Of a DNA stretch of 21,352 bases, positions 8,662-21,206 are shown one piece after another (the first letter of the stretch is position 1; each line of letters begins with the position of its first letter). The notes under the pieces were generated by a model that saw only the letters and a program-made list of their open reading frames with translations, was not told the DNA's origin and ran no database searches. Where the stretch lies: IMG/VR virus record IMGVR_UViG_3300027486_000034, positions 1-21,352 of that record. One strand, given 5' to 3'. A program made the position numbers and the translations under genes. The DNA comes from a virus.

Positions 8662-9209
8662 GTGGGCACCACCTTCTTGAATTGAGACAACACGTTCTTG
8701 ATGCTGTTGGTGAAGTCCTTCTGGGTGAACGTGACTGTCTCCCCAGCGAGGCCCTTGCTCGTGATACCAATGCGATCACGTTCCTTGTGACGCAGTGACA
8801 CGAGCTCGATGACAGCTTGTTCAATCTCGTACGGGATCGTAGAGAAGCCAGCAACATACTGGATGCGCACGTTCTGGACGCCACGAGAGAAGGTGTACCC
8901 GCGAAGGTACACGTTGCCTTCATCGAAGAAGTAGCCATCAGAGGTGTCGTTGCCAACAGGGATAGGCACCCCGTTGACTACCACGCTGGACACGGCTGTA
9001 ACTGGGTACTGAGGCAACACAACAGTGACGCCACCTTTGCCATTCAGGCGCAGGTCGTAAGAGGCACTGAACAGATCACGGTTCAAGTAGCTCACCACAC
9101 CGTTTGATGCAGCAGTGATGAGCCGAGCCAGCGCGGCGTCTTCAGCGTTGCTGGTGATGCCCATCCACTGCTTGACGTTAGCCAGCGTGGTCAGATCAGA
9201 TGCAGCCAT
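8658..9209 (-). CDS. Head-tail connector protein (gp6-like)
   Basis: The 183-residue protein starts with the helical phrase LTTLANVKQWMGITSNAEDA followed by ALARLITAASNGVVSYLNRD, a hallmark of phage gp6-like connector proteins (Phage_connect_1 / adaptor type). The middle carries the strand pair YPVTAVSSVVVNGVPIPVG. A C-terminal helical part with EQAVIELVSLRHKERDRIG completes the fold. These proteins form the adaptor ring beneath the portal. An AAGGTG ribosome site precedes the ATG by about 8 bases. The gene lies 12 bases after the small paralogue gene and overlaps the gp10-like gene by ATGA. Confidence 0.9.
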   Translation of the reverse strand: MAASDLTTLANVKQWMGITSNAEDAALARLITAASNGVVSYLNRDLFSASYDLRLNGKGGVTVVLPQYPVTAVSSVVVNGVPIPVGNDTSDGYFFDEGNVYLRGYTFSRGVQNVRIQYVAGFSTIPYEIEQAVIELVSLRHKERDRIGITSKGLAGETVTFTQKDFTNSIKNVLSQFKKVVPT

Positions 9210-9641: not shown

Positions 9642-9655
9642 GTTGGCTCCTTCTA

Positions 9656-9678
9656 GTGGTAGAGTTGAAGTCTACCAC
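9656..9678. repeat. Perfect 8-bp inverted repeat of the GTGGTAGA octamer
   Basis: GTGGTAGA at 9656-9663 and TCTACCAC at 9671-9678 form a perfect 8-bp stem with a 7-base loop. It lies just upstream of the ribosome site of the 59-residue gene. The octamer belongs to the family found only in three intergenic gaps of this window. It could be an operator or an RNA hairpin in the leader of the downstream genes. Confidence 0.8.
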
Positions 9679-9694
9679 CGTGTGGTTGATTGAC

Positions 9695-9751
9695 TTGGAG
9701 TGGTAGAGGTAGAGTGTGGCTTATAAAAAGCCAACACACTCTACCACCACC
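9695..9751. repeat. 57-base hairpin repeat, copy A (after capsid gene)
   Basis: This element matches copy B at 18529-18585. The first 23 bases and the last 19 bases are identical, while the 15-base centre differs. The left arm holds GTGGTAGA (9700-9707) followed by GGTAGAGTGT. The right arm holds TCTACCAC (9740-9747). Bases 9708-9722 pair with 9728-9745 around the loop ATAAA, with a 3-base bulge (9733-9735). In leftward transcription the hairpin begins about a dozen bases after the capsid stop. No U-run follows the stem, so it is not a typical intrinsic terminator. It could be an RNA processing or stabilising hairpin or a protein-binding site. Confidence 0.9.
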
Positions 9752-9763
9752 TACCTGTTTCGC

Positions 9764-11257
9764 TTATTGAGGAGCGATGTTTGTGATCACGCCCATAGCG
9801 AATGGGGCGTACACTGCCAGCACTTCTTCAGCGTACACACCGAACTCGTACGAGCGGGTGCGCAGAGGCCAATCCAACTGGTAGTAGTCCTGGCGAACCT
9901 TGACTTCAGCCACGTTGGGCACTTGGTTGGACTGGTACTGCTCAGGCAGGTTTTCAGCCCAGGCCACGATGGTGCCAGCAGGCAACGTCGGGTGGATCTT
10001 CACGGGGATCTTCGTGCCACCGTTCTGGGTGAACGGGTTGAAGTAGTACCCGATGGTACCACCAGCCATCAGCTGGCCGAAGCCTTCAGATGGTGCGGTC
10101 AGCAGTTGCAGCAACGGAGCGCTGGAAGGACCAGTCAGGCACAGCGTAGCCATGTCTTGCAGTTCCTGAGCGTTCACGTACAGCACGGTAGGCGTGATCT
10201 GGTAGTTGTCCCACATGCTCTTCAGCATGACGTCGATCTCAACGACAGTGCCCTTGCCAGAAGCAGTCAGCTTCGAGCCCACACCAGGAGTGCCAGTGGC
10301 CATCGTCTTCACGTAAGCGCCGGAACCGGGCTTCAGTGCAGAGTACAGCAAGCCATCGAACGACAGAGAGGCGTTGTTGGACTTGTCCGTGGCGCTGATG
10401 GATGCAGCCGTTTGGCCAGTACCAGCCAAGGCAACAGCGAAGGTCGCCGAATTCTTGGTGGTGATGGCTTCCAGCTTTTCAGCGCCAGCCGTACCGACGA
10501 ACCATGCGTAACCCAGGGCACCGACGACAGCAGTGGTGGAGCACGACAGGGTTTGACCCAGCGTCACCGCTTGCGTAGCAGCAGCCGACTTGTTGGACGA
10601 ACCACCGTTCAACACATAGCTCTGGCCATCAGCGCCAGTGATGGTCAACGAGGTGGGGACGCCATTGGCCAGCGAAGCACCACGGAAGCCTTCACCAGTC
10701 AAGGCAACCACGATCACCGAGTAGGTGGCAGCAGCCAGAGTAGCGCCGGAGCCAGCAGCCGACAGGGTAGGGGTAGCAGGAGTGCCCAGGGCGACAGAAG
10801 CGTTACCCATCAGGAGAGCGTTCTCTTCCTTGAGCATCATCTTCTGCAGATTGCGCATGGTGGCAGTGGAGCGCACGTCTTCGAACGTACGACCAGCCGA
10901 CACAGCTTCGAAGGTCACACTGTCTTCTTCACCGATCGTGCGGTACGAAGCAGCCTTCTCTTCGGTGATGTACGACATGCGTGCCGTGCGCTGGCCTTCA
11001 GGCACCCAGCCCATGGCGTCAAAGCCGGAGCCGACGATGGCCTTGATCGCTTTCCAGTTGGTCGCCACACCAGTACCACCACCCACGCGAGGCAGGCGGT
11101 TGCGGATGGGGGTGTTGACAGGGTACAGGTTCTTGGCAGGCGCTTGCAGGTCGTAAGCGGTCAGGCCAGTACCCGTGCTGACAGACTTGGCGATGGCATC
11201 GGAGCTTTGAGCCAGCGCAGTCTTCATCAGCTGCATGGTTTCGAGAGTCACGTTCAT
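9764..11257 (-). CDS. Major capsid protein (HK97 fold) with inserted domain
   Basis: This 497-residue protein has capsid features. It starts with a helical N-arm (MNVTLETMQLMKTALAQSSD). Next come NLYPVNTPIRNRLPRVGG and YRTIGEEDSVTFEAVSAGRT, phrases common in capsid proteins of this phage group, then FEDVRSTATMRNLQKMMLKEENALLMGN, a spine-helix-like segment. From about 155 to 300 there is an insertion rich in Gly, Ala, Thr and Ser with strands such as ATYSVIVVALTGEGF, probably a beta-sandwich domain displayed on the shell. The fold resumes with VVEIDVMLKSMWDNY and ends DYYQLDWPLRTRSYEFGVYA. A strong GGAGGA site sits about 6 bases before the ATG. There is no obvious N-terminal delta domain; scaffolding seems to be supplied by the adjacent protease gene. 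Confidence 0.9.
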   Translation of the reverse strand: MNVTLETMQLMKTALAQSSDAIAKSVSTGTGLTAYDLQAPAKNLYPVNTPIRNRLPRVGGGTGVATNWKAIKAIVGSGFDAMGWVPEGQRTARMSYITEEKAASYRTIGEEDSVTFEAVSAGRTFEDVRSTATMRNLQKMMLKEENALLMGNASVALGTPATPTLSAAGSGATLAAATYSVIVVALTGEGFRGASLANGVPTSLTITGADGQSYVLNGGSSNKSAAATQAVTLGQTLSCSTTAVVGALGYAWFVGTAGAEKLEAITTKNSATFAVALAGTGQTAASISATDKSNNASLSFDGLLYSALKPGSGAYVKTMATGTPGVGSKLTASGKGTVVEIDVMLKSMWDNYQITPTVLYVNAQELQDMATLCLTGPSSAPLLQLLTAPSEGFGQLMAGGTIGYYFNPFTQNGGTKIPVKIHPTLPAGTIVAWAENLPEQYQSNQVPNVAEVKVRQDYYQLDWPLRTRSYEFGVYAEEVLAVYAPFAMGVITNIAPQ

Positions 11258-11317
11258 ATAGAGTCCTCCAGGTAGAGAGGTGGTTACGGTTGATGAGTTG
11301 ATGAAAACAGCACTAGG

Positions 11318-12667
11318 TCACTTGATGACCGTTGTGCCACCGGCTTGGAACACTTTGCGGAGCTCGAACTCTGCTCGTGCGGGAGTGCCTTCAGGCGGGG
11401 CTTCCACCTGTTCGGCTTGATTGGTAACGTCAGGCAGTGCGTCCTGGCCCTTGGACAACACCTTCAAGAGTGCTCGGCCCGGAGCGGCTTGTTTGCCGAG
11501 GGCTTCGAGCTTCTTGTTGAGGTCTTCGTTTTCTTTCTGCACTTTCTGGAGTTGCTCGTTGATCGGAGCCAGCGCCTTGCTGATAGCGTCTTCGCTGGTC
11601 GAGCCATTGTCAACGGTAGCGGCTTTCGAGGTGCCGTCTTCCTCGTCCTCTTCAGCATCTTGGTACCCCAGTGCCTTCAGATGATCACACGCTTCACCGA
11701 TCGCCTTCTCCAGATTGGCCAGCGTAGCCTTGGTTGTCTTGGAGTACTTGGCACCAGCCTTAGCGATACCATCGGTATCGGTTTGGGCGTTTTGCAGGCG
11801 TTTTTGCAATGGGGTGGTAGCTGTGCCCTTGGCAACCGCGTTTTGCAGCGTTGCAGCCAGTTCTTGGGCTTCTTCCTGGGCCATTGCGGTAAACAGGCCA
11901 ATGCCGGTTGCCACCCAGTCCTTCAGAGCTTGGGGAAGGGGGCTGTTGTCACCTTCGTACTCAGCCTCCCAGGTAACGTCTTCGCACAGGTAAGCCAGCG
12001 AGCTCAGCGTTTGAGCGAATGCGCTCACCGTGTACATGCCCTTCTGCACCGTGTCGCCGGTAGGTGTGTCCATCTTGCTGACATCTTCAGGTGCAGGCTC
12101 GATAACGGTATCGGCTGGCTTGGCTTCCTTCGATGCCTTCACCAGCGCCAGCACTTCAGCAGGGGTGACAGTGCCGTTGTCCAGCAGTTCAGCCAGTTCA
12201 TTCACGTCGTCTTCAGGGGTGCCCTCGACCTTGAACACCGTCATCACGGCATCAGGGTTGCAAGGACGGTCCACGAGGCTGACTTCAACAAGGTTCAGGC
12301 CCTTGATGATGGACTTGTTCATCGTGTCACGCTCGGTGACCTTGCCACCAATGCTGAAACCCTTGTACACCTTGGTCTGGACCTTGGTGATAGCCACAGG
12401 GTCAACGATGTGCGCACCGAACCATGTCTTGCCATCTTCACCGACACTCGCTTCGATAGCGGTACCGGCTGCAAGAGGCTGGTGCATTTCACGCACAGCG
12501 CCGAACTTCATGTAGTCGGGCAGTGCCGCCTTCATGGCTTCGGGGGTGATAGTCTCACCGTCAGCGTCGACAGACCCACTGGAAGCGAAACCCCATACCT
12601 TGATGGTGCCGTCTTCCTGGTCTTCAACCTTGGCGATGTCCGCGTACAGTTGCTTCTTCAGTTTCAT
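11318..12667 (-). CDS. Prohead protease (XkdF-like) fused to a scaffold-like region
   Basis: The protein is 449 residues. The first 145 form the serine protease domain: IKVWGFASSGSVDADGETIT near the start, a histidine at 62 in REMHQP, a serine at 105 in YKGFSIGG, and acidic residues in NLVEVSLVDRPCNPDA (128-133). These match the XkdF / U35-type prohead protease family. The remaining 300 residues are Glu/Ala/Lys-rich and mostly helical, with a clear coiled coil near 355-395 (NEQLQKVQKENEDLNKKLEA), suiting an internal scaffold that is cleaved away on maturation. No separate scaffold gene is present before the capsid gene. An AAGAGGA ribosome site precedes the ATG by about 8 bases. It follows the portal gene by 12 bases. 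Confidence 0.87.
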   Translation of the reverse strand: MKLKKQLYADIAKVEDQEDGTIKVWGFASSGSVDADGETITPEAMKAALPDYMKFGAVREMHQPLAAGTAIEASVGEDGKTWFGAHIVDPVAITKVQTKVYKGFSIGGKVTERDTMNKSIIKGLNLVEVSLVDRPCNPDAVMTVFKVEGTPEDDVNELAELLDNGTVTPAEVLALVKASKEAKPADTVIEPAPEDVSKMDTPTGDTVQKGMYTVSAFAQTLSSLAYLCEDVTWEAEYEGDNSPLPQALKDWVATGIGLFTAMAQEEAQELAATLQNAVAKGTATTPLQKRLQNAQTDTDGIAKAGAKYSKTTKATLANLEKAIGEACDHLKALGYQDAEEDEEDGTSKAATVDNGSTSEDAISKALAPINEQLQKVQKENEDLNKKLEALGKQAAPGRALLKVLSKGQDALPDVTNQAEQVEAPPEGTPARAEFELRKVFQAGGTTVIK

Positions 12668-12679
12668 GAGTAGTTCCTC

Positions 12680-14818
12680 TTAGTCATCGCCCAGGACGGG
12701 CAACACATCACATCGGCAGTTGGGGTGGAGTGGCGCACCATCTACCCCACCGTCGAATTGTTCGTCGAGTGGTACGATCACACCGTCAAGTTCTTGGCAC
12801 TCATCACAGCACCCATCACCAGTGATCCACTTCTTACCCTCGACCACACCGCTTTCACGGTAGGCTTGCAGGTTCCCGGCTACGTCAGCGTAGGCAGTCT
12901 CCGTACGAGCAATGACCATAGAACGCTCATCGCTGAACCCGTAGTTCTGTGCGATGGTGTCCGCTAGGTCTTGGTTGCTAGAGCCTTCCTCCATGGCTTG
13001 CGCCACGTCAGAACGCAACATGTCCCGTGTTGAATCACTGACCTTGGTGACCAGTTCCGCCGCACGTTCCTGTGCATACGCGATAGCCTTTTCATTGGCT
13101 AGCTCTAGCTGCTCTTTACTGAACGACCCGGTCACCTGCAGGAACGCTTCCTTGCTGCCATCAAGGTGCATGGACGCCAGTACATCGGTGACCGATGGTA
13201 CCAGGTCCTCTAGCTCCTCGAAGGTCAACTGGGCTAGCAGTTCCTCCAGGTCCTTGTCAGGCGTGTCAGCCTTGCCTACCTTGTCCGCCAGTTCAGCGGC
13301 GACGCGATCACCGATCTTGCCGAACGAACCCTTGAACAGCTTGCTCAGTTTAGTAACTGTGCGAGCAGCCTTGGTGCGCTCCCGATCGATGGGTACTACG
13401 CGTCGCCGCATGGCTTTTCCCAGGTACTTACCTGCCTTGTCGTCTTCGGCCTTGTCTGCTGGCTTCTTACCCTTGGGTGCAGGAGGCTCAGCGTCAGGGT
13501 CGTTGGGGTCAACAGGCAAGCCATCAGCACCCATGACAGGTGCAGGAGGCATGAGCTCATCACGCTGCTCATCGGTCATCGGCTCTTTGCCAATAGCCTC
13601 ACGGGCTTCATCCTTGGTGATGACCTTCTCCTTGACGTAGCCAGTCAAGGTCTGCATCTGTACCAGTGGGCTGGTCTCGTCTTCCTCAACCCACTTGAAG
13701 CACAGGTCTTGGTAGCCGAAGTACTTCCACACGATGAGGTTGAGCAGGTTCTCTACCCACTTCATCAATGGGATGAGGCCTTCAGACAAGGCTGCACCAC
13801 GCACAGACTCAGCGGTAGCCCGGTTGACTTGCTTGACCAGCGCATTGGGGTCGATGCTGAACGCAAAGCACACGATACGGGCGAGCCACTCATCGTAGTC
13901 GTCCTTCAGTGCAGATTCCTTGGTCATGATGGGCTTGATGCCACCTGGAGCGAACTTGGCATGGCGTCGTTCAGCCGTGTTGCCCTCGAGCATGGCATCC
14001 CAGTAGTCCTGGAACTTCTTGATCTGGTCAGTGTTCCATTCAGGCGGTACACCGTAGATCATCTCGGGCACGTTGCCCTCAGTGTAGTACTGGAGCTGAT
14101 GCAGTTGACGCCGCATAGCGATGTTGACAGTCATGATGACTTGCTCAACAGGGCTATACCCATACACACGATTCGTGCGCACGTTGCGAGGCTTGTAGAT
14201 CAACTCATCACGGGTGTAGTTGACAGCCGGGATACCCTTGATGATCTGCTGGTATGCAGGGTCAGGGGCTACCGGAGTACGACCCGTAATGTCGAGCACC
14301 CGTTTGATGGTGGCTCCATCCACGAGCTCGACAGCAAACAGCGAGCCATCGAGCGTAGGACGTGGGTACACAGTGGCAGCATCACACACCAGCAGGTCTT
14401 CCAGCAACGCACGAAGCCACGTATCCCAGTCGAGCTCACCATCAGGGAACTGCATGAAGTTGACGATGTCTTCACACCGCTTGTCAGACTGAGCTTTCTC
14501 GTCACGTGGTGCGATGGTCCACTTCAACTTGGCAAGCTGGTCCTTACGCGTCTCGATGACAAGGCGCAACAAGTCGTAGCCATCGGCCAGAGCACGCATG
14601 TGCTCAAAGCTGACAGCCTCTTGATCACGGGGTCGGTACCGGGTGTTGACACCTACAGGGAAGTCGAACTGACGACCCTTGGCTTCTTCCTGTGCTTGAG
14701 GTGCAACAGGCTGACCGGGTGACATCCAGTTGTCTGGCTTCACTCCGGTCAGCATGTACTTGGCACCTTGCACAACCCGGCTGATGACTCCCTGATCGAT
14801 AGGGGTCTTGGTTGGCAT
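12680..14818 (-). CDS. Portal protein fused to MuF-type head morphogenesis domain
   Basis: This 712-residue protein combines two head proteins. Residues 1 to about 430 are a portal: VSFEHMRALADGYDLLRLVI, a DWDTWLRALLEDLLVCDAAT segment, a stretch RTNRVYGYSPVEQVIMTVNI and the helix SALKDDYDEWLARIVCFAFS. A Pro/Asp/Lys-rich linker (about 430-475) follows. The C-terminal part (about 480-712) ends in a Mu F / SPP1 gp7-like domain with MVIARTETAYADVAGNLQAY, then GDGCCDEC and APLHPNCRCD, the metal-binding-like cysteine and histidine pattern of that family. Portal genes are usually separate from MuF genes, though fusions are known. It makes the DNA-packaging vertex, and the MuF part is probably ejected or internal. 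An AAGGAG site lies about 9 bases before the ATG. Confidence 0.92.
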   Translation of the reverse strand: MPTKTPIDQGVISRVVQGAKYMLTGVKPDNWMSPGQPVAPQAQEEAKGRQFDFPVGVNTRYRPRDQEAVSFEHMRALADGYDLLRLVIETRKDQLAKLKWTIAPRDEKAQSDKRCEDIVNFMQFPDGELDWDTWLRALLEDLLVCDAATVYPRPTLDGSLFAVELVDGATIKRVLDITGRTPVAPDPAYQQIIKGIPAVNYTRDELIYKPRNVRTNRVYGYSPVEQVIMTVNIAMRRQLHQLQYYTEGNVPEMIYGVPPEWNTDQIKKFQDYWDAMLEGNTAERRHAKFAPGGIKPIMTKESALKDDYDEWLARIVCFAFSIDPNALVKQVNRATAESVRGAALSEGLIPLMKWVENLLNLIVWKYFGYQDLCFKWVEEDETSPLVQMQTLTGYVKEKVITKDEAREAIGKEPMTDEQRDELMPPAPVMGADGLPVDPNDPDAEPPAPKGKKPADKAEDDKAGKYLGKAMRRRVVPIDRERTKAARTVTKLSKLFKGSFGKIGDRVAAELADKVGKADTPDKDLEELLAQLTFEELEDLVPSVTDVLASMHLDGSKEAFLQVTGSFSKEQLELANEKAIAYAQERAAELVTKVSDSTRDMLRSDVAQAMEEGSSNQDLADTIAQNYGFSDERSMVIARTETAYADVAGNLQAYRESGVVEGKKWITGDGCCDECQELDGVIVPLDEQFDGGVDGAPLHPNCRCDVLPVLGDD

Positions 14819-14831
14819 GGTCTATGGCTCC

Positions 14832-16445
14832 TTAGAAGAAAGGCGTGTAGTTGTTGACTTCAATGTCGTGCGGGGTAAACCTGACCGTGATCCGCGAGCG
14901 CTTCAGGTTATGGGACGCGCCCGTTGACTTGTTGATCGTGGCCTGAATCCTAGGAACATAGGTTGCATCAACCGTCGATATATAGAACCGTGCGCTACAC
15001 GTGAAGTTCGTGCGCTCGCCGTTCAGAGCGGGTGTCGTGACAGATTCAGTAGTTCGGTTTGATACCGATCCGCCATCAAGGATGATCCCGACTGAATATC
15101 GACCGATTGCAGCGCTCAAGCATTCGATAGTCCCCTCTACGGTCACATCAAGCCACCCTTTGCAGGTCACTGGACAATCGATATAGTTACGCGGGAGTCC
15201 GCCGACGCCTGGGTCCGATTCATCCCACGTCATCGGAGTGTCGGCGGCGGTGTCAACCAAGGTGCCACCGGCAGTGATTGACGCCGCACTATTCTCATTG
15301 AACCGTCTGAAGTTCCACGCATATACAGGCGCCGGTGTCTGCTGGTAAAGCGTTTGCAGGAACGAAACAATCCACGTGGTGACGTAGCCAGCGTACCGTG
15401 TGATGCCGCCGGACGTCATGGCACCCAACACGTCGCCGCCGTCGATGCCGCGCGAACATTCCAATAGCGCACAGTTGCCGTGCGGCTTCAACCTGACGTT
15501 CTGCAGGTAATGCGTGGCCCAATTCTGCAGGGTTGGATTGGTGTCTGTCTCGTTGCTCCCGAAAGTGCTGGCATTGGACGAGTAGACCGACCTATGCACC
15601 TGATTGGCCAGTCGCCAATGTTTGCGATTCGCACGTGTCCAGAAAGAGCCTGCGCCGGTCAGGATCTCGTAAGCGCTGTAACCGACCTCGTAATTGTGGC
15701 AATCGATCACGCCGTCGATGTCGCGAGCGTCAATCACCGCTTTGATGGCCTGCGTTTCCGGCTCAGACAAAGCCGATGCGCCTGGATAGTTGTCATCCGA
15801 TGTTGATGGGTGCGCAGCCAAATACCGTGAGTGATAGAACGGGTAGTTCCGGTTCAGGTCAACCAGATTGGCGTTCTTACGTCCGCCACGGAATGCGCTC
15901 GGGTTTGCGTGCGGAATCCAACTAATCGTGATCTGGTTGCGAAGAGCCGCAAACACCGCAGACTTCGGATTCACGAATTCTTCCATCCAGCGGACCATGG
16001 ACCACGTACCAGCCAGTTCGGGGCCATGTACGCCACAGGTTACGAGGATGTTGATTGGTCCGTTTCCGGCGCGGTACTCATAGATTCGATCCGTTCCGTT
16101 TGAGCAGAGCCCCCGATCAGTTTTTGTGACTCCAGCCGAAATAGGGAGCATAGAGTCCAGCAGTGAGATTAGGCTTGCGTAGGTTTGGTACGGGGTCGAA
16201 TCAAACTCTTTGAGTGTTACCTTGGTCATGGCGAGACTCATGCCTCCACCAAAACCAGCGGATACGAGTGCTGCTGCGCCCGACAACGGTACGCCGTCTG
16301 GGTCGACCTCCACGCCACCGACCTTACGCAGATCTGCTTCTTCGACACTGTTACGTGGCGTAAACACCCCATCAGGTGACGATTCTAACGCACCCAACGA
16401 GGTACTGATAGACCTAGTGAACAACGGGATCTTCCATTTAGCCAT
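14832..16445 (-). CDS. M14 zinc carboxypeptidase-like protein with fibre-like C-terminal domain
   Basis: The 537-residue protein holds an M14 metallopeptidase core at about 85-360. The zinc ligands are His140 and Glu143 in CGVHGPELAG and His250 in IDCHNYE. The substrate-binding Asn-Arg pair is at 198-199 in DLNRNYPF, and the catalytic glutamate is probably Glu329 in ALLECSRG. So all expected active-site residues are present. The first 75 residues (including VEVDPDGVPLSGAAALVSAG) look like a virion-anchoring or collar segment; no signal peptide is seen. Residues about 385-537 are beta-rich, resembling jelly-roll domains of phage fibres. A good ribosome site, AAAGGAG, precedes the ATG. The gene separates terminase from portal, which are normally adjacent, and its codon choice looks less uniform than its neighbours, suggesting a late arrival. 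It could cut peptidoglycan peptides or poly-glutamate; the substrate is unknown. Confidence 0.85.
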   Translation of the reverse strand: MAKWKIPLFTRSISTSLGALESSPDGVFTPRNSVEEADLRKVGGVEVDPDGVPLSGAAALVSAGFGGGMSLAMTKVTLKEFDSTPYQTYASLISLLDSMLPISAGVTKTDRGLCSNGTDRIYEYRAGNGPINILVTCGVHGPELAGTWSMVRWMEEFVNPKSAVFAALRNQITISWIPHANPSAFRGGRKNANLVDLNRNYPFYHSRYLAAHPSTSDDNYPGASALSEPETQAIKAVIDARDIDGVIDCHNYEVGYSAYEILTGAGSFWTRANRKHWRLANQVHRSVYSSNASTFGSNETDTNPTLQNWATHYLQNVRLKPHGNCALLECSRGIDGGDVLGAMTSGGITRYAGYVTTWIVSFLQTLYQQTPAPVYAWNFRRFNENSAASITAGGTLVDTAADTPMTWDESDPGVGGLPRNYIDCPVTCKGWLDVTVEGTIECLSAAIGRYSVGIILDGGSVSNRTTESVTTPALNGERTNFTCSARFYISTVDATYVPRIQATINKSTGASHNLKRSRITVRFTPHDIEVNNYTPFF

Positions 16446-16503
16446 ACGTGGCTCCTTTCAGTTGAGGTGAGGGCACTAACCCAGTGAAGACGAGCTATTG
16501 TCC

Positions 16504-17868
16504 TTATTCCCACCAACTCTTACGGCCTCGATCCTTTTCCTCCTGTGCAGCCTTCACTTCACGTGCGTAGTGATCGATCAGACCAGTCATGCTGATGTCT
16601 GCTAACTCGGTGATAGCCCATACCAGAGCATCCATGCGGTCAGGGGACTTCAGCGCTACCAGTGGATCGAAGTCACACATCTGGTCTTCCATCTGGCCGA
16701 ACGAGCCTATGTGGTGCACGAGGCCCTTCTCGTACATAGCGGCTACAGGCTCAGCACGAATGGACTTGCCTCGTGAGGCGCGTACTTCCTTGTAGCTGAT
16801 ATTCGGGTCTTCGACACGCACGTTACGCTCAACGAGCTCACCACCGTTGTTCACTTCACCGATGACGCGGTCAGCGCCATGCTCACTATACGCGTAAGAC
16901 ACCTTACGCGCCCAGCCCAGCGGTGTCTCGATGAGCGAGTAGTCACCCAGCACGTAGTAGTGACCATCACTGCCTTTGGCTGCAACCACGATACCTGTCA
17001 AGTCACTGTCCTCGTTGCTCGTGACAGCAGGGTCAACACCCACCACGATACGGACCAGGTCCACGCCACCTGGGACAGCAGGCAAGCGGAGCTCGTCTAT
17101 GTTGCTGCGCTTCCACAGAGCATTGGGGTTGTCATCCAGGATCTCAGCGTTCAGTTCCTGCTTACCCAGGCGCGTACCCTCGTACTTGGTGATGATCTTC
17201 TTGAAGAAGCGTGGAGCTAGGTTAGCTTGGTTGTCGTACGTGGTGCCAGTGGTGATTACAGTGCCTTCATCTGCAGCCAGTTCGCGTATGATCTTGGTAG
17301 GCTTAGGCGTTGTGGTGATGACAGCCTGAGGGTCTTGGCCTAGACGCAAGCCGAACATGGCTTGGTCCCAGGCTTCAGCGTAGCGCCATGCTGCTAGCTC
17401 ATCAGCCCATAGCTTCTCGTGCTGCTTACCACGCAAGCGCTCAGGCTCGTCAGCGGTGAAGATGAGGCTGACCGCGCCATTGGGCCACACCAGCTTACGT
17501 TCACCACGCTTGTACACTGGACGGTCATGCTTGGGACAGCAAGCCAGGATACCTGACTCACCCTCGATCATGATGTCACGTGCGTCGTCTACCGTTGCGC
17601 CAATCAGGTTGCAGTACTGGAAGCCCTTAGCGTTCCACTGGCGCATGGTTTCAGCGCCTGTACGGGTCTTACCGAAGCCACGCCCTGCCAGGATAAGCCA
17701 GTAGGCCCAGTCCCCCTCGGGTAGAAGCTGGTTAGGGCGCGCTTGCTGGGTCCAGTTGGTACGGGCTAGTTCAAGCTGAATCTCTGCCTTGCTTTTCTTA
17801 CGCTTGTTGCGTTCAGCCAGCAGGGCGTGGAGGCGGGCTCGGGTGCTGGAGGGGATGATGAGTTGCAT
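16504..17868 (-). CDS. terL: Terminase large subunit
   Basis: The 454-residue packaging motor has both expected parts. The ATPase has Walker A at 62-68 (GRGFGKT in LILAGRGFGKTRTGAE), Walker B at 152-157 (KLWADE, with Asp156 and Glu157) and a motif III ITTTPKP at 184-190. The nuclease domain carries Asp279 in VVGVDPAV, Glu338 in VIGEVNNGG and Asp413 in SPDRMDALVWA, the RNase H-like acidic residues. The sequence belongs to the Terminase_6 / COG5323 type used by GTA-like phages. It follows the small subunit by 44 bases. No clear ribosome site precedes the ATG at 17868. Confidence 0.95.
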   Translation of the reverse strand: MQLIIPSSTRARLHALLAERNKRKKSKAEIQLELARTNWTQQARPNQLLPEGDWAYWLILAGRGFGKTRTGAETMRQWNAKGFQYCNLIGATVDDARDIMIEGESGILACCPKHDRPVYKRGERKLVWPNGAVSLIFTADEPERLRGKQHEKLWADELAAWRYAEAWDQAMFGLRLGQDPQAVITTTPKPTKIIRELAADEGTVITTGTTYDNQANLAPRFFKKIITKYEGTRLGKQELNAEILDDNPNALWKRSNIDELRLPAVPGGVDLVRIVVGVDPAVTSNEDSDLTGIVVAAKGSDGHYYVLGDYSLIETPLGWARKVSYAYSEHGADRVIGEVNNGGELVERNVRVEDPNISYKEVRASRGKSIRAEPVAAMYEKGLVHHIGSFGQMEDQMCDFDPLVALKSPDRMDALVWAITELADISMTGLIDHYAREVKAAQEEKDRGRKSWWE

Positions 17869-17912
17869 GGTTGACGAACGTTACGTGTTGCGCGTATTGT
17901 TCGTCGTACAGC

Positions 17913-18398
17913 TTACTCATCAGCGTCCCTGACCAGCCCTGCCCCGTCGAGCGTGTCTTCATCAACGAGGTCTACGTCCGTTATGCCAAACTCCAGCAAC
18001 AGCTTGCGCAGTTCATCGTTGAGTTGCTGGTCTGACAGCGAGGTGGGGTCCTGTGACCCAGGTGTCTTGACGACTGCTGCTGCAAGGCGTGGAGCGAAGA
18101 AGGGTGCAGCCGCTTTGGCCGCATCAATGCGGTCTTCCCATGGAGGGTAGATGCTGCGCTTGACGTACGCCTTCTTCTCTGGGTCCCACACATGGTGGTC
18201 GATGGGTTCACCACGAGCGATGTCCAGCAGTATCTCATGAGGGAGCTTGCCTGACTGAACCGCTTTGGCTCGGACCATAGCCGTGATGACAGCGTTCGTA
18301 CCGGGCTTCCGGCCTCGCTTGCGTCTCACGACTTCTCCGGCTGGTGGGTTTTGCCCCATGTCAGCGGGGGGAGGGGCTGGAGCTTTTCTTCTTGGCAT
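17913..18398 (-). CDS. terS: Terminase small subunit (probable)
   Basis: The preferred ATG at 18398 gives 161 residues starting MPRRKAPAPPPADMGQ. A frame back to a GTG at 18458 adds a hydrophobic 20-residue stretch that looks unlike any terminase start, and neither start has a clear ribosome site. A basic RRKRGRKPGTNAV segment is followed by PPWEDRIDAAKAAAPFFAPR, which is the familiar small terminase pattern (basic N-terminus, then R-x-x-AA-x-AAP-F/Y). The C-terminus is acidic with DLVDEDTLDGAG. It would recognise the packaging site and load TerL. It lies just downstream of the repeat-rich gap at 18459-18704. The identity rests on this pattern and on its place before terL. Confidence 0.82.
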   Translation of the reverse strand: MPRRKAPAPPPADMGQNPPAGEVVRRKRGRKPGTNAVITAMVRAKAVQSGKLPHEILLDIARGEPIDHHVWDPEKKAYVKRSIYPPWEDRIDAAKAAAPFFAPRLAAAVVKTPGSQDPTSLSDQQLNDELRKLLLEFGITDVDLVDEDTLDGAGLVRDADE

Positions 18399-18528
18399 GA
18401 TGTGTATTCTGAAGATGAAGATGTTGAACGAGTTGAACAAGCTGAGGGACCGGACCACCGTTACAGAAGCTTAACTAGCCGTTGTTGCAGAGCAGTAGTA
18501 GACGGTTCAACTGAGTTTAAGAATCACA

Positions 18529-18585
18529 TTGGAGTGGTAGAGGTAGAGTGTTGCTTTTAAAAGCGCAACACACTCTACCACCACC
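18529..18585. repeat. 57-base hairpin repeat, copy B (between replication gene and terS)
   Basis: This is the partner of copy A at 9695-9751, with identical 23-base left and 19-base right arms. The octamer GTGGTAGA is at 18534-18541 and its complement at 18574-18581. The 15-base centre is TGCTTTTAAAAGCGC, containing the perfect 12-base palindrome GCTTTTAAAAGC, where copy A has GGCTTATAAAAAGCC. The centre has changed in both halves while still able to pair. No U-run follows on the minus strand. Confidence 0.9.
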
Positions 18586-18600
18586 CACCACTGTTTAGCA

Positions 18601-18641
18601 TCTACCACTCTACCACCTGTTAAACTCTACCACTCTACCAC
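18601..18641. repeat. Tandem octamer cluster (iteron-like)
   Basis: Four copies of TCTACCAC lie at 18601-18608, 18609-18616, 18626-18633 and 18634-18641. They form two head-to-tail pairs 25 bases apart, separated by an AT-richer ctgttaaac. The arrangement resembles iterons bound by replication initiators, and it lies about 60 bases after the primase-helicase stop. Alternatively it is a multi-site operator. No protein partner can be named from sequence alone. Confidence 0.85.
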
Positions 18642-18704
18642 TCGTGAATGGTTTTACGTGTTCCCGGCCCGCGCGTGCGGCCCACTGATCAGAACGGATT
18701 TGTC

Positions 18705-20879
18705 TCACATCAACTCCTTTTCGTCGTGCCAGTCCAAGCCCTCCTGCGATGGCGCGTAGTACATACCGCGATTGGGACCGAGCTCCATGTCCACGAGGCC
18801 TTCCTGGTGCAGCCACTCCATGATCTTCTTCACGGCTGGCTTGGCCTTACCCGTGCCGATACACACCATGTTCTGACTACACTCGTGTTCTTGCTTGCGT
18901 AACCACTTGATCACGTCCATGCCGTGACGCTCCATGGTGTTCAGCTTGCTGGCCTCTTTCATTTCCTTCTTGGCTTCGGCCATGCGTTCCTTGCTGGCAG
19001 CAAGTTCAGCACCGTCAAGCTTCTTGATGTCGGGCCGGGGAATGAGCAGCGAGCCGCGTCGCTCCATGACCATGACACCCAGCCCAGCTGAGTAGTTGTG
19101 CTTAACGTGCTTGAAGATAACGTAGCGGTCTGTTGTTTCCTGACTGCTCTCCAGGCCAAACAGAGGGGCGTCTTTGTTGCCCATGCTGAGTACCACTGCC
19201 ACCGAGCGTGCGTTGTCTGCAAAGCTGGATGCACCACGCAAGGAGCCTTGGTTGATCTCGTCGATGGTCTGCCACAGCGCCGCTTTGTGCATGTGATGCA
19301 GTACGCATACAGCACAGTCGGCTTGCTTGGCGATGTACGTGAGTGTCTGCATGTACTGGGCCATCTCACCAGGGGAAGACTCTTCCATGTTGTGAGTGTA
19401 CACCACGGGGTCAAGCGTCAGTAGCCGTATGCCTTCACGCTTGAGCAAGCCTACGAGCCACTCGACGCGGGCTGTACGTTCAGCCTGGGAGCGCTGGTCT
19501 GGCTTGGACATGAGTAGCCAGCTTGCAGCGTTGTCGTCAGCAGCGAAGGTGAGGAAGTTACGCTTGAGCTTGGCATCAACGTCGTGGATGAGGTCAAGCT
19601 TGCCATCGTCAAACTCACGGAGTGCGTGTGACAGTGCGTGTACGCGTTTGTGCAGTTCGAGCGTGTCATCTTCGTAGCTGACGTACAGGCTCTTGAGCTC
19701 ACCATCTGGCTTGAAGTCGTAGAACGATTGGCCCATCGCACCGTACACCATCATGTGCATGAGCATACTGGACTTGGACACACCGCCTGGACCCGCTATC
19801 ACAGTGACCTTGCCTCGGGGCAGCAACTTGTCTACCGCGAAGTGGCGCTCTTCAGGGGTGTCGTTGAGTAGGCGGGTTATGTCTGCTCTGGCAAGGAAAT
19901 CATCGTAGTCATCGAGTACCCCTGTGCCATCAGTTTCAGCACTGAGGTACTCGTGCTCTCGTAGCCATTGCACCAGCCTAGTGTATGTGAGGTGAGGTTT
20001 GTCGTCTTCGTCTGGGGCGGTGTCGAAGCACTTTACTGCTGCACGCGGGTTGCCATCGTAGTTCGCTTCGTAGTAGACCGTCTGCGTGTCATTGACTTCT
20101 CCATGCTCATCGGCGAAGGGGCACCGTATGAAGTGCATCCCAGGGTGGTCGTCCTTGGGGCCTATGTATAGGCCAGCCTGCATAACAGCAGCCAGCACCG
20201 GGTCTGTAGCGTGTACGGGCTTGGGTGCAGTGCCATCCCAGTCGTCACCAGTGCTGGCGCTTTCCTTGTGATAGTCCGTGTGTTCCCAGGGTGCGCCGCG
20301 CTTGAACTTGTTGTAGTGGGTGCCACCACCCAACACTGCTGGCAGGTACATAGGCTGGCTGGGCACGTATGACTCGCGTGCGCACCAAGCCTTGATGCCT
20401 AGCTCACGGGCTGCACCCAGGGTAGCGTCACGGAGCGTGTCCTCGATGTCCTCGTAGATAGGCTCGTCTAGAGGCAGCACAACGCGGTAACGTGGCGACT
20501 CAGGCGTGTGGCCTACAGACGTGTACACCCAGCCAGCCCGGCCTAGCTCAGCCAGAGACAGTACGACTTCATCTGGGTCAGGCGGAGGGCCACTGCCTTT
20601 CTTTACGTTCTCTTCGATGTCCAGCGTCAGCAGTGTGCGACACACCACGTTACTGTCACGACGAATGGCTGGCTCCAGCGTACCGCCGACGAAGTAGTCC
20701 AGCTTGCGCTTGGTCTCGTTCTTGCTGGGTTTGTCCATAGCGTGGTACTCGTCGTATGACGTGTCCAGCGCTCGGGGCTTTGCATATGCTTTCGCGAAGT
20801 CGTAGAAGTCGTCTGTGTCAGGCGATCTTAGCTTTTTGTTGCCAACGCCTCCGCGTGCGTAACTGTAGGGTGTGTCCAC
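18705..20879 (-). CDS. Primase-helicase (AEP-like domain plus RecA-like helicase)
   Basis: The 724-residue protein joins replication modules. The N-terminal part (about 1-210) looks like a primase-polymerase of the archaeo-eukaryotic type: acidic LTLDIEE at 84-90 and YTSVGHTPESPRYRVVLPL at 119-137. A middle segment with Cys253, His259 and Cys284 (RCPFADEHG to KCF) resembles a zinc-ribbon-like primase linker. The helicase part (about 345-600) is RepA/AAA_25-like, with a Walker A variant GPGGVSKS at 363-370, Walker B LLTLD at 486-490, a CVLHHMHK segment and GSLRGASSFADNARS at 545-559. The C-terminal 70 residues look like a winged helix. It starts at a GTG at 20879 after an AGGAG site. It probably primes and unwinds phage DNA. 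The Walker A serine replaces the usual glycine before lysine. Confidence 0.85.
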   Translation of the reverse strand: MDTPYSYARGGVGNKKLRSPDTDDFYDFAKAYAKPRALDTSYDEYHAMDKPSKNETKRKLDYFVGGTLEPAIRRDSNVVCRTLLTLDIEENVKKGSGPPPDPDEVVLSLAELGRAGWVYTSVGHTPESPRYRVVLPLDEPIYEDIEDTLRDATLGAARELGIKAWCARESYVPSQPMYLPAVLGGGTHYNKFKRGAPWEHTDYHKESASTGDDWDGTAPKPVHATDPVLAAVMQAGLYIGPKDDHPGMHFIRCPFADEHGEVNDTQTVYYEANYDGNPRAAVKCFDTAPDEDDKPHLTYTRLVQWLREHEYLSAETDGTGVLDDYDDFLARADITRLLNDTPEERHFAVDKLLPRGKVTVIAGPGGVSKSSMLMHMMVYGAMGQSFYDFKPDGELKSLYVSYEDDTLELHKRVHALSHALREFDDGKLDLIHDVDAKLKRNFLTFAADDNAASWLLMSKPDQRSQAERTARVEWLVGLLKREGIRLLTLDPVVYTHNMEESSPGEMAQYMQTLTYIAKQADCAVCVLHHMHKAALWQTIDEINQGSLRGASSFADNARSVAVVLSMGNKDAPLFGLESSQETTDRYVIFKHVKHNYSAGLGVMVMERRGSLLIPRPDIKKLDGAELAASKERMAEAKKEMKEASKLNTMERHGMDVIKWLRKQEHECSQNMVCIGTGKAKPAVKKIMEWLHQEGLVDMELGPNRGMYYAPSQEGLDWHDEKELM

Positions 20880-20888
20880 CGTGCTGTA

Positions 20889-20893
20889 CTCCT
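20889..20893 (-). promoter_or_regulatory. Ribosome binding site of the primase-helicase (supports GTG start)
   Basis: AGGAG on the minus strand lies 9 bases before the GTG at 20879. No in-frame ATG with a comparable site is near, so this decides the start in favour of GTG. Confidence 0.7.
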
Positions 20894-20923
20894 GTTGTAT
20901 ATGGGGCAGGGGTAGCCATTGTC

Positions 20924-20962
20924 CAGGTGGTAGAGTGGGTCAGGTGGTAGAGTGTCTACCAC
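20924..20962. repeat. Tandem 14-base repeats plus octamer dyad upstream of primase-helicase
   Basis: CAGGTGGTAGAGTG occurs at 20924-20937 and again at 20941-20954, a 17-base period. The second copy's GTGGTAGA (20944-20951) and the following TCTACCAC (20955-20962) make a perfect 8-bp inverted repeat with a 3-base spacer. The octamer is the same as in the gaps at 9642-9763 and 18459-18704. The position, about 45-85 bases upstream of the GTG start, suits an operator or activator site. Confidence 0.85.
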
Positions 20963-20963
20963 T

Positions 20964-20978
20964 GCTACCGTCGGTAGC
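20964..20978. promoter_or_regulatory. 15-base palindrome, operator-like
   Basis: GCTACCG and CGGTAGC form a perfect 7-bp inverted repeat around a single T. It adjoins the octamer dyad and shares the core TACC/GGTA. Short perfect dyads of this size are typical of repressor sites. No bound protein can be identified from this window. Confidence 0.55.
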
Positions 20979-21135: not shown

Positions 21136-21161
21136 AACCCGGCTTCGGCCGGGTTCTTTTT
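21136..21161 (+). terminator. Rho-independent terminator, rightward
   Basis: AACCCGGC and GCCGGGTT form a perfect 8-bp stem around a TTCG tetraloop, followed by CTTTTT. The U-run is on the plus strand only, so it stops rightward transcripts. No rightward gene precedes it. It may shield the right-hand promoter from readthrough, or end an unrecognised short plus-strand RNA. Confidence 0.9.
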
Positions 21162-21206
21162 GCCTAAATAACCCTACAACTAAGTAAGGTTTGTTCAAGA
21201 TAGTCC

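Follow-up and report, generated by a model that had tools for sequence, protein, structure and literature searches.

Introduction

pRN1 and phage BIP-1/BPP-1 encode a multi-domain replication protein (primase-helicase-winged-helix), and a stem-loop lies in the 3′ region of its gene. According to PMC4234260, the stem-loop is required for replication of pRN1 and is a proposed origin in BIP-1/BPP-1; the fold of the stem is conserved and its sequence is not, and its authors did not find any specific binding site or motif. The RSF1010 replicon comprises the RepA helicase, the RepB′ primase, the iteron binder RepC and ssi hairpins, and the alpha protein of satellite phage P4 is a multidomain protein with a Toprim primase and a winged helix that binds the origin repeats (both as described in PMC4234260). 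In the elements of the PICI/SaPI type, as described in PMC6092414, the origin lies immediately 3′ of rep, with groups of iterons on either side of an AT-rich part, and the iteron sequences are shown separately for each element.

The locus described here lies in a window of 21,352 nucleotides, the whole stretch of viral DNA that was analysed. Like pRN1 and BIP-1, it has a large stem-loop directly 3′ of its replication gene, repA, with a conserved fold and an unconserved sequence. Like RSF1010, it has a helicase of the same family, and iteron-like sites and hairpins near the replication gene. It is proposed, with a probability of about three in four, that the octamer GTGGTAGA would be the site of the RepA winged helix, acting in a hairpin-bearing origin 3′ of repA, in an operator 5′ of it, and in a duplicated site in the gap behind the capsid gene.

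Results

Octamer copies and composite hairpins in the window

Counting both strands of the whole 21 kb window, GTGGTAGA occurs in 13 exact copies, in the three gaps where a sequence-only reading had placed them:

9642-9763: gap after the capsid gene, with octamers starting at 9656, 9671, 9700 and 9740
about 18399-18704: gap between repA and the small-terminase-like gene, with octamers starting at 18534, 18574, 18601, 18609, 18626 and 18634
20880 to about 21280: gap upstream of repA, with octamers starting at 20927, 20944 and 20955
9764-11257, minus strand: major capsid protein gene (PHROG 13692), which precedes the first gap
16504-17868: large terminase gene, after the gene at 17913-18398
17913-18398, minus strand: small-terminase-like gene (by position), after the repA gap; an ORF with a possible start at 18458
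18705-20879, minus strand: repA, encoding a 724-aa replication protein

The capsid protein is 27-28% identical to annotated capsid proteins of Arthrobacter phages, and the product of 17913-18398 matches PHROG 15261 (function unknown) at 2e-7. A zinc carboxypeptidase gene (Peptidase_M14; 14832-16445, minus strand) lies between the large terminase and portal genes.

In 100 dinucleotide shuffles the octamer was found 0.59 times on average and three times at most, in agreement with the earlier estimate of less than one copy by chance. As had also been noticed, no exact copy lies within the likely genes among the ORFs of the window. The count with one mismatch, which had been suggested as a check against shuffled sequence, gave 33 matches in the window against 17.1 expected, so that the excess amounts approximately to the exact copies and a few degenerate ones adjoining them.

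The arrangement of the octamers is mixed, with abutting direct pairs, close inverted pairs (a further one at 20944-20962) and two long hairpins:

9656-9678, no strand: inverted pair GTGGTAGA-N7-TCTACCAC in the capsid gap
9695-9755, minus strand: composite element behind the capsid gene, forming a second composite hairpin at 9697-9750
18529-18589, minus strand: composite element in the repA-terminase gap, with a hairpin at 18531-18584, octamer-bearing arms and a TTTTAAA loop
18601-18641, minus strand: four octamers in two abutting direct pairs (18601-18616 and 18626-18641), candidate iterons
20927-20962, minus strand: three octamers, 48-83 bases before the repA start, candidate operator

The two composite elements, which the sequence-only reading did not mention, are 61 nt long, 90% identical and separated by about 8.8 kb. 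The hairpin at 18531-18584 has an MFE of -24.7 (z -5.3) and that at 9697-9750 an MFE of -28.4 (z -6.6). No GC-skew switch marking an origin was found in the window, where skew is uninformative.

The capsid gap in relatives

Relatives of the capsid gene are plentiful, and GTGGTAGA was found as a repeat only in two sister contigs, L001 and L081, from one metagenome; a DNA-level search of phage records gave no match. Compared with the window, the sisters are 98.4-99.2% identical in the gaps and 95.5-96.0% in the capsid and repA coding sequences, and only a single octamer of the 13 has changed: it belongs to the pair at 9656-9678, where L001 carries a mutation in one of the two. In the repA gaps (98.4 and 98.6% identical, with 96.0% for the repA coding sequence) no octamer is altered, and the four at 18601-18641 are identical in L081. 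Many other capsid relatives have just a GC-rich hairpin directly behind the capsid gene, and a few have REP-like palindromes. As the octamer is limited to the sisters and other capsid gaps differ, the generality of the system does not lie in the capsid gap, where relatives do not have the element.

Words enriched among the capsid-gene relatives proved, where read, to be REP-like palindromes and not RepA words, and other viral contigs with a tandem word or a similar hairpin turned out to hold coding sequence or unrelated matter. Palindromes of tandem short words, of the CACGAAGGA, CACAGATTA, CATCCTGAGGA and CCGCGAAAGCGG types, were seen in structural-gene gaps of capsid relatives (L029 5884-5940, L031 13770-13900, L068 2283-2345 and L055 13083-13200); they resemble the interspersed repeats of bacterial genomes.

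The duplication of the 61-nt element and the REP-like palindromes of some capsid relatives might suggest that the window's repeats are selfish mobile palindromes spread through intergenic gaps. This is scarcely credible, as the octamer element was limited to this lineage in the search of viral contigs, and as the words described below stand at conserved places beside repA and, in the pair L114/L116, change in parallel, unlike spreading copies.

Lineage-specific words on both sides of repA

RepA proteins 43-49% identical to that of the window are encoded by Rhodoferax phage P26218 and a Manatee Spring podophage, which have words of their own in the gaps on either side of repA, GTAGCAGA and GTGAGTAC(TCAC), respectively. 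A de novo search for repeated words covered the sequences flanking repA at 22 loci, which belong to about 12 lineages; the entries L103 and L124 are one contig, which is without the 3′ gap. Across about a dozen lineages, the words found include GTGGTAGA, GTGAGTACTCAC, GTGAGTACG, GGAGTACTCC, GGTTACC, GGTTCC, GTAGCAGA, GGTGCTACC and GGTGTGTCC. The scan returned GGTAGA 12 times in the window's flanks (p 2e-12), TGAGTA 18 times in L092 (p 8e-25) and GTGCTA 10 times in L114 (p 2e-13). Outside the repA flanks the words are rare, with 16 of 16 copies in the gaps in L092, 6 of 6 in P26218 and 9 of 9 in L114. In L129, a metagenome-assembled Rubrivivax locus, a similar hairpin and repeated GGTGGCC-like words were read by eye, and no word strongly passed the scan. 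A 15-nt tandem repeat with a CCCCGGACAGAT core was also seen in L092 (19084-19392), inside an annotated pentapeptide repeat protein gene and adjoining a ParB-like gene.

The upstream and downstream gaps of repA have more 8-mers in common than random windows in 10 of 14 loci; in 140 bases upstream, this sharing was not found in L107, L108, L109 and L114. In L111 a small ORF precedes repA, and the upstream word sits before that ORF.

The sequence-only reading had taken the absence of the octamer from the same gaps of close relatives as a sign against its proposal. The octamer is indeed absent beyond the sisters, yet each relative has its own word beside repA, and the test would therefore have misled.

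The genes around the repeats differ among the carriers. Virion genes range from those of P22-like podophages (L092, L093) to siphophage-type heads, and the gap is followed by an HNH endonuclease-like gene in L114 and L116 and by different terminase-like proteins in several other lineages. The repeats thus go along with repA and not with the structural genes or the gene that comes after the gap. It is common for a small terminase to bind close to the gene that encodes it. As the window's gap directly precedes the terminase genes, and as the next gene is usually that of the small terminase subunit, a pac signal recognized by this subunit had to be considered. It is very unlikely: the architecture and the hairpin persist while the following gene varies, and in most lineages the words are also found upstream of repA.

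A hairpin of conserved shape 3′ of repA

In the downstream repA gap of the relatives, inverted copies of the word pair as outer arms of a hairpin, and the same architecture as in the window was found in 14 relatives. The apical loops are T-rich (TTTTAAA, CCTTTTAA, CCCTTTAT and others). The inner stems have unrelated sequences and yet pair in every case, frequently with a small 5′ bulge. All 16 hairpins tested, from 15 phage loci as the window has two, have folding energies below those of dinucleotide shuffles (z -3.6 to -6.6); their cores were chosen by eye, and the z-scores are descriptive and do not amount to a blind test. Since a site for a protein on double-stranded DNA alone would need no paired inner stems, a single strand probably folds at some stage.

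A conserved shape with a changing sequence would also fit RNA elements, and a GC-rich hairpin stands right behind the capsid gene in many capsid relatives. The elements could thus be terminators or processing hairpins in a polycistronic late mRNA, in which the repeats only form the arms. RNA-processing hairpins had been among the candidates of the sequence-only reading; the structural conservation of the composite hairpin bears out that part of the suggestion and the rest was not upheld. Many words lie outside the hairpins, in direct or unpaired arrangement (18601-18641; L092; L114), and words are present again upstream of repA. The window's hairpins are not followed by a U-tract, and a search of Rfam gave no match. 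An RNA function of this kind is accordingly judged highly improbable.

Domains of RepA

RepA consists of a primase-like N-terminus, a helicase of the RSF1010-RepA type at about 330-620 and a winged helix at about 642-724, and it matches PHROG primase and helicase models. The helicase was recognized as Pfam AAA_25 (4e-26), and residues 330-623 align to RSF1010 RepA with a VIA-align Z of 25.7, against values near 19 for DnaB-type rows. The N-terminus matches the DNA primase model PHROG 9765 (6.5e-26). For an archaeo-eukaryotic primase domain, as in replicons of the pRN1 type, its match to PrimPol_Db at 1e-4 was below the cut-off, and a profile search of it against solved structures gave no match; the assignment as a primase is weak.

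The C-terminal domain was modelled with a pLDDT of 90. Foldseek identified a MarR-type winged helix in the model, the best matches being MarR-family regulators, some of them in DNA complexes. The origin-binding domain of P4 alpha is absent among the matches listed, which is no evidence against kinship. RepA is thus predicted from the model to carry a DNA-binding domain of the winged-helix type, with a candidate recognition helix:

18804-18842, minus strand: codons of the predicted recognition helix, RepA residues 680-692, from the structure model

This helix is H680-692 in the full model and H51-63 in the domain model.

Word and predicted recognition helix change in parallel

The recognition helix is a variable part of RepA, and it tracks the word. 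A V/I-H-K/R-R helix is found with GGTTCC at six loci, SKPAL with GGAGTACTCC, TRTNR with GTGAGTAC and WNPA with GTAGCAGA. When the identity of the RepA body was controlled for, word similarity and helix identity were correlated in 12 lineages with a partial Mantel r of 0.22 (p 0.045), a modest correlation beyond relatedness from few lineages and from helix columns picked after the alignment had been seen. The rest of the C-terminal domain showed no correlation with the word (p 0.88). The six GGTTCC loci may be one clade (tree support 71/89); within this group the V/I-H-K/R-R core is kept, and the rest of the domain is about 21-44% identical in several pairs. Related words, those with a GAGTAC core, go with different helices in the lineages that have them, which counts against a match between word and helix.

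The most telling pair is L114 and L116. Their RepA proteins differ at three positions in residues 1-629 and at 15 in residues 630-736, the last 107, and the 5′ part of repA is 97% identical in DNA. The helix changes from PQV to PAT, and in the downstream gap GGTGCTACC is replaced by GGTGTGTCC at most word sites, with much of the flanking sequence kept; L114 has nine copies of GTGCTACC and L116 six of GTGTGTCC in the homologous gap. The diverged block extends from the end of repA into the downstream HNH endonuclease-like ORF. Recombination of a block containing the winged helix and the origin would be the simplest history; from this pair alone, the change may also be linked to the HNH gene.

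Sites upstream of repA and near the capsid gene

A palindrome of the GATACC-N3-GGTAGC type and an ACAAT motif are conserved upstream of repA in 16 aligned loci, independently of the lineage word. In the window, GCTACC-N3-GGTAGC is at 20964-20978 and the invariant ACAAT at 20918-20922 on the minus strand, and the octamers of 20927-20962 sit between them. The two motifs are possibly the repA promoter and the site of another regulator. A terminator-like GC-rich hairpin, AACCCGGCTTCGGCCGGGTT followed by CTTTTTG, was seen at 21136-21162 on the plus strand, where it separates the divergent region from the sites before repA.

The location of the words between the conserved palindrome and the invariant ACAAT suits an operator, yet some loci have no word there. 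It would also suit a separate repressor or activator, controlling repA and the late genes in place of RepA; the mixed orientation and the spacing of the words fit a dimeric regulator, and the capsid gap may be a boundary of transcription units. Such a regulator is unlikely, as RepA alone was seen at all of the loci, with a winged helix that varies along with the word. Moreover, the words are mostly 3′ of repA and not at promoters, and L107, L109, L114 and L116 have none within 140 bases upstream of the gene. Binding by RepA itself is therefore preferred.

A second site away from repA was also found elsewhere. L009, on the same contig as the repA locus L107, has four CCGGTTCC and a hairpin with a CCCTTAAGGG apex inside the protease gene (8984-9087), within a translated gene, which the capsid gene follows after about 1 kb. 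A similar word pair and hairpin are found in the protease gene of L006 (7843-7893), whose repA is not on the same contig, and contig L008/L110 has no such word pair at the protease position. The copy in the window's capsid gap duplicates the putative origin element, and it is an attractive reading that it serves as a distant accessory replication site.

Discussion

Copies of a short word clustered beside the initiator gene, as in an iteron-type origin, are found here. It is presumed that the C-terminal winged helix of RepA reads GTGGTAGA as a site or half-site, and that the gap 3′ of repA, with its clustered sites and one long hairpin, is the replication origin. After binding of RepA to the sites, its ring helicase would be loaded and melt the DNA, and the primase-like domain would make primers close to the T-rich loop that the hairpin exposes. 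The sites 5′ of repA adjoin a likely promoter and could serve RepA for autoregulation. A second RepA site may have arisen by duplication behind the capsid gene, where it would resemble an accessory replication region remote from the origin. Joint change of site and helix would account for the different word of each phage lineage.

The earlier proposal of a single phage-specific protein for all three gaps finds good support, and RepA would be that protein. From its list of candidates, replication iterons fit best and an operator is retained upstream of repA; a packaging signal and stoperators are not favoured, because the repeats keep to repA whichever gene comes after the gap, and because the words occur in both orientations.

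More speculatively, origin specificity may be switched as a module in the RepA family: in replicons that are otherwise near-identical, the winged helix would change along with most sites of the adjacent gap, which would yield non-interfering origins. A second RepA site would have been planted repeatedly near the capsid gene, after it or in the protease gene, linking replication to late expression or to fork control. This wider proposal is tentative and more doubtful than not.

About ten words and one protein family make up a natural series of matched initiator/origin pairs. As these include L114 and L116, whose differences are concentrated in the sites and the C-terminal domain, initiator-origin co-evolution is directly testable. 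The origins of uncultured phages may be predictable from sequence alone, and the words suggest a binding motif of the sort that was sought beside the pRN1 hairpin without success.

Comparison with known systems

Stoperators of mycobacteriophages are repressor sites with one orientation relative to transcription. The present repeats resemble them as a short phage-specific word in gaps, and differ by having both orientations within each gap and by clustering at repA.

In P4, iterons occur at two separate sites, ori and crr, and the alpha protein has an SF3 helicase. The window likewise has repeats at two separate places, the repA region and the capsid region, whereas its RepA has a RepA-type helicase and not an SF3 one. 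The helicase of pRN1 is also of the SF3 class, and pRN1 has no iterons (PMC4234260); here, a helicase like that of RSF1010 RepA is combined with plain repeated sites, which are also found 5′ of repA. By its helicase class, the system stands outside both the pRN1-type and the P4-type replicons.

RSF1010 uses three proteins, whereas the helicase, primase-like and DNA-binding parts appear here in one polypeptide of 724 aa; this comparison covers the window, and most of the phage's early region lies outside it. The PICI/SaPI elements are satellites with other Rep families, and the relevant passages of PMC6092414 report no composite hairpin with iteron arms. The present system combines the layout of pRN1 and BIP-1, a proposed PICI-like iteron origin 3′ of the replication gene and a helicase of the RSF1010 type.
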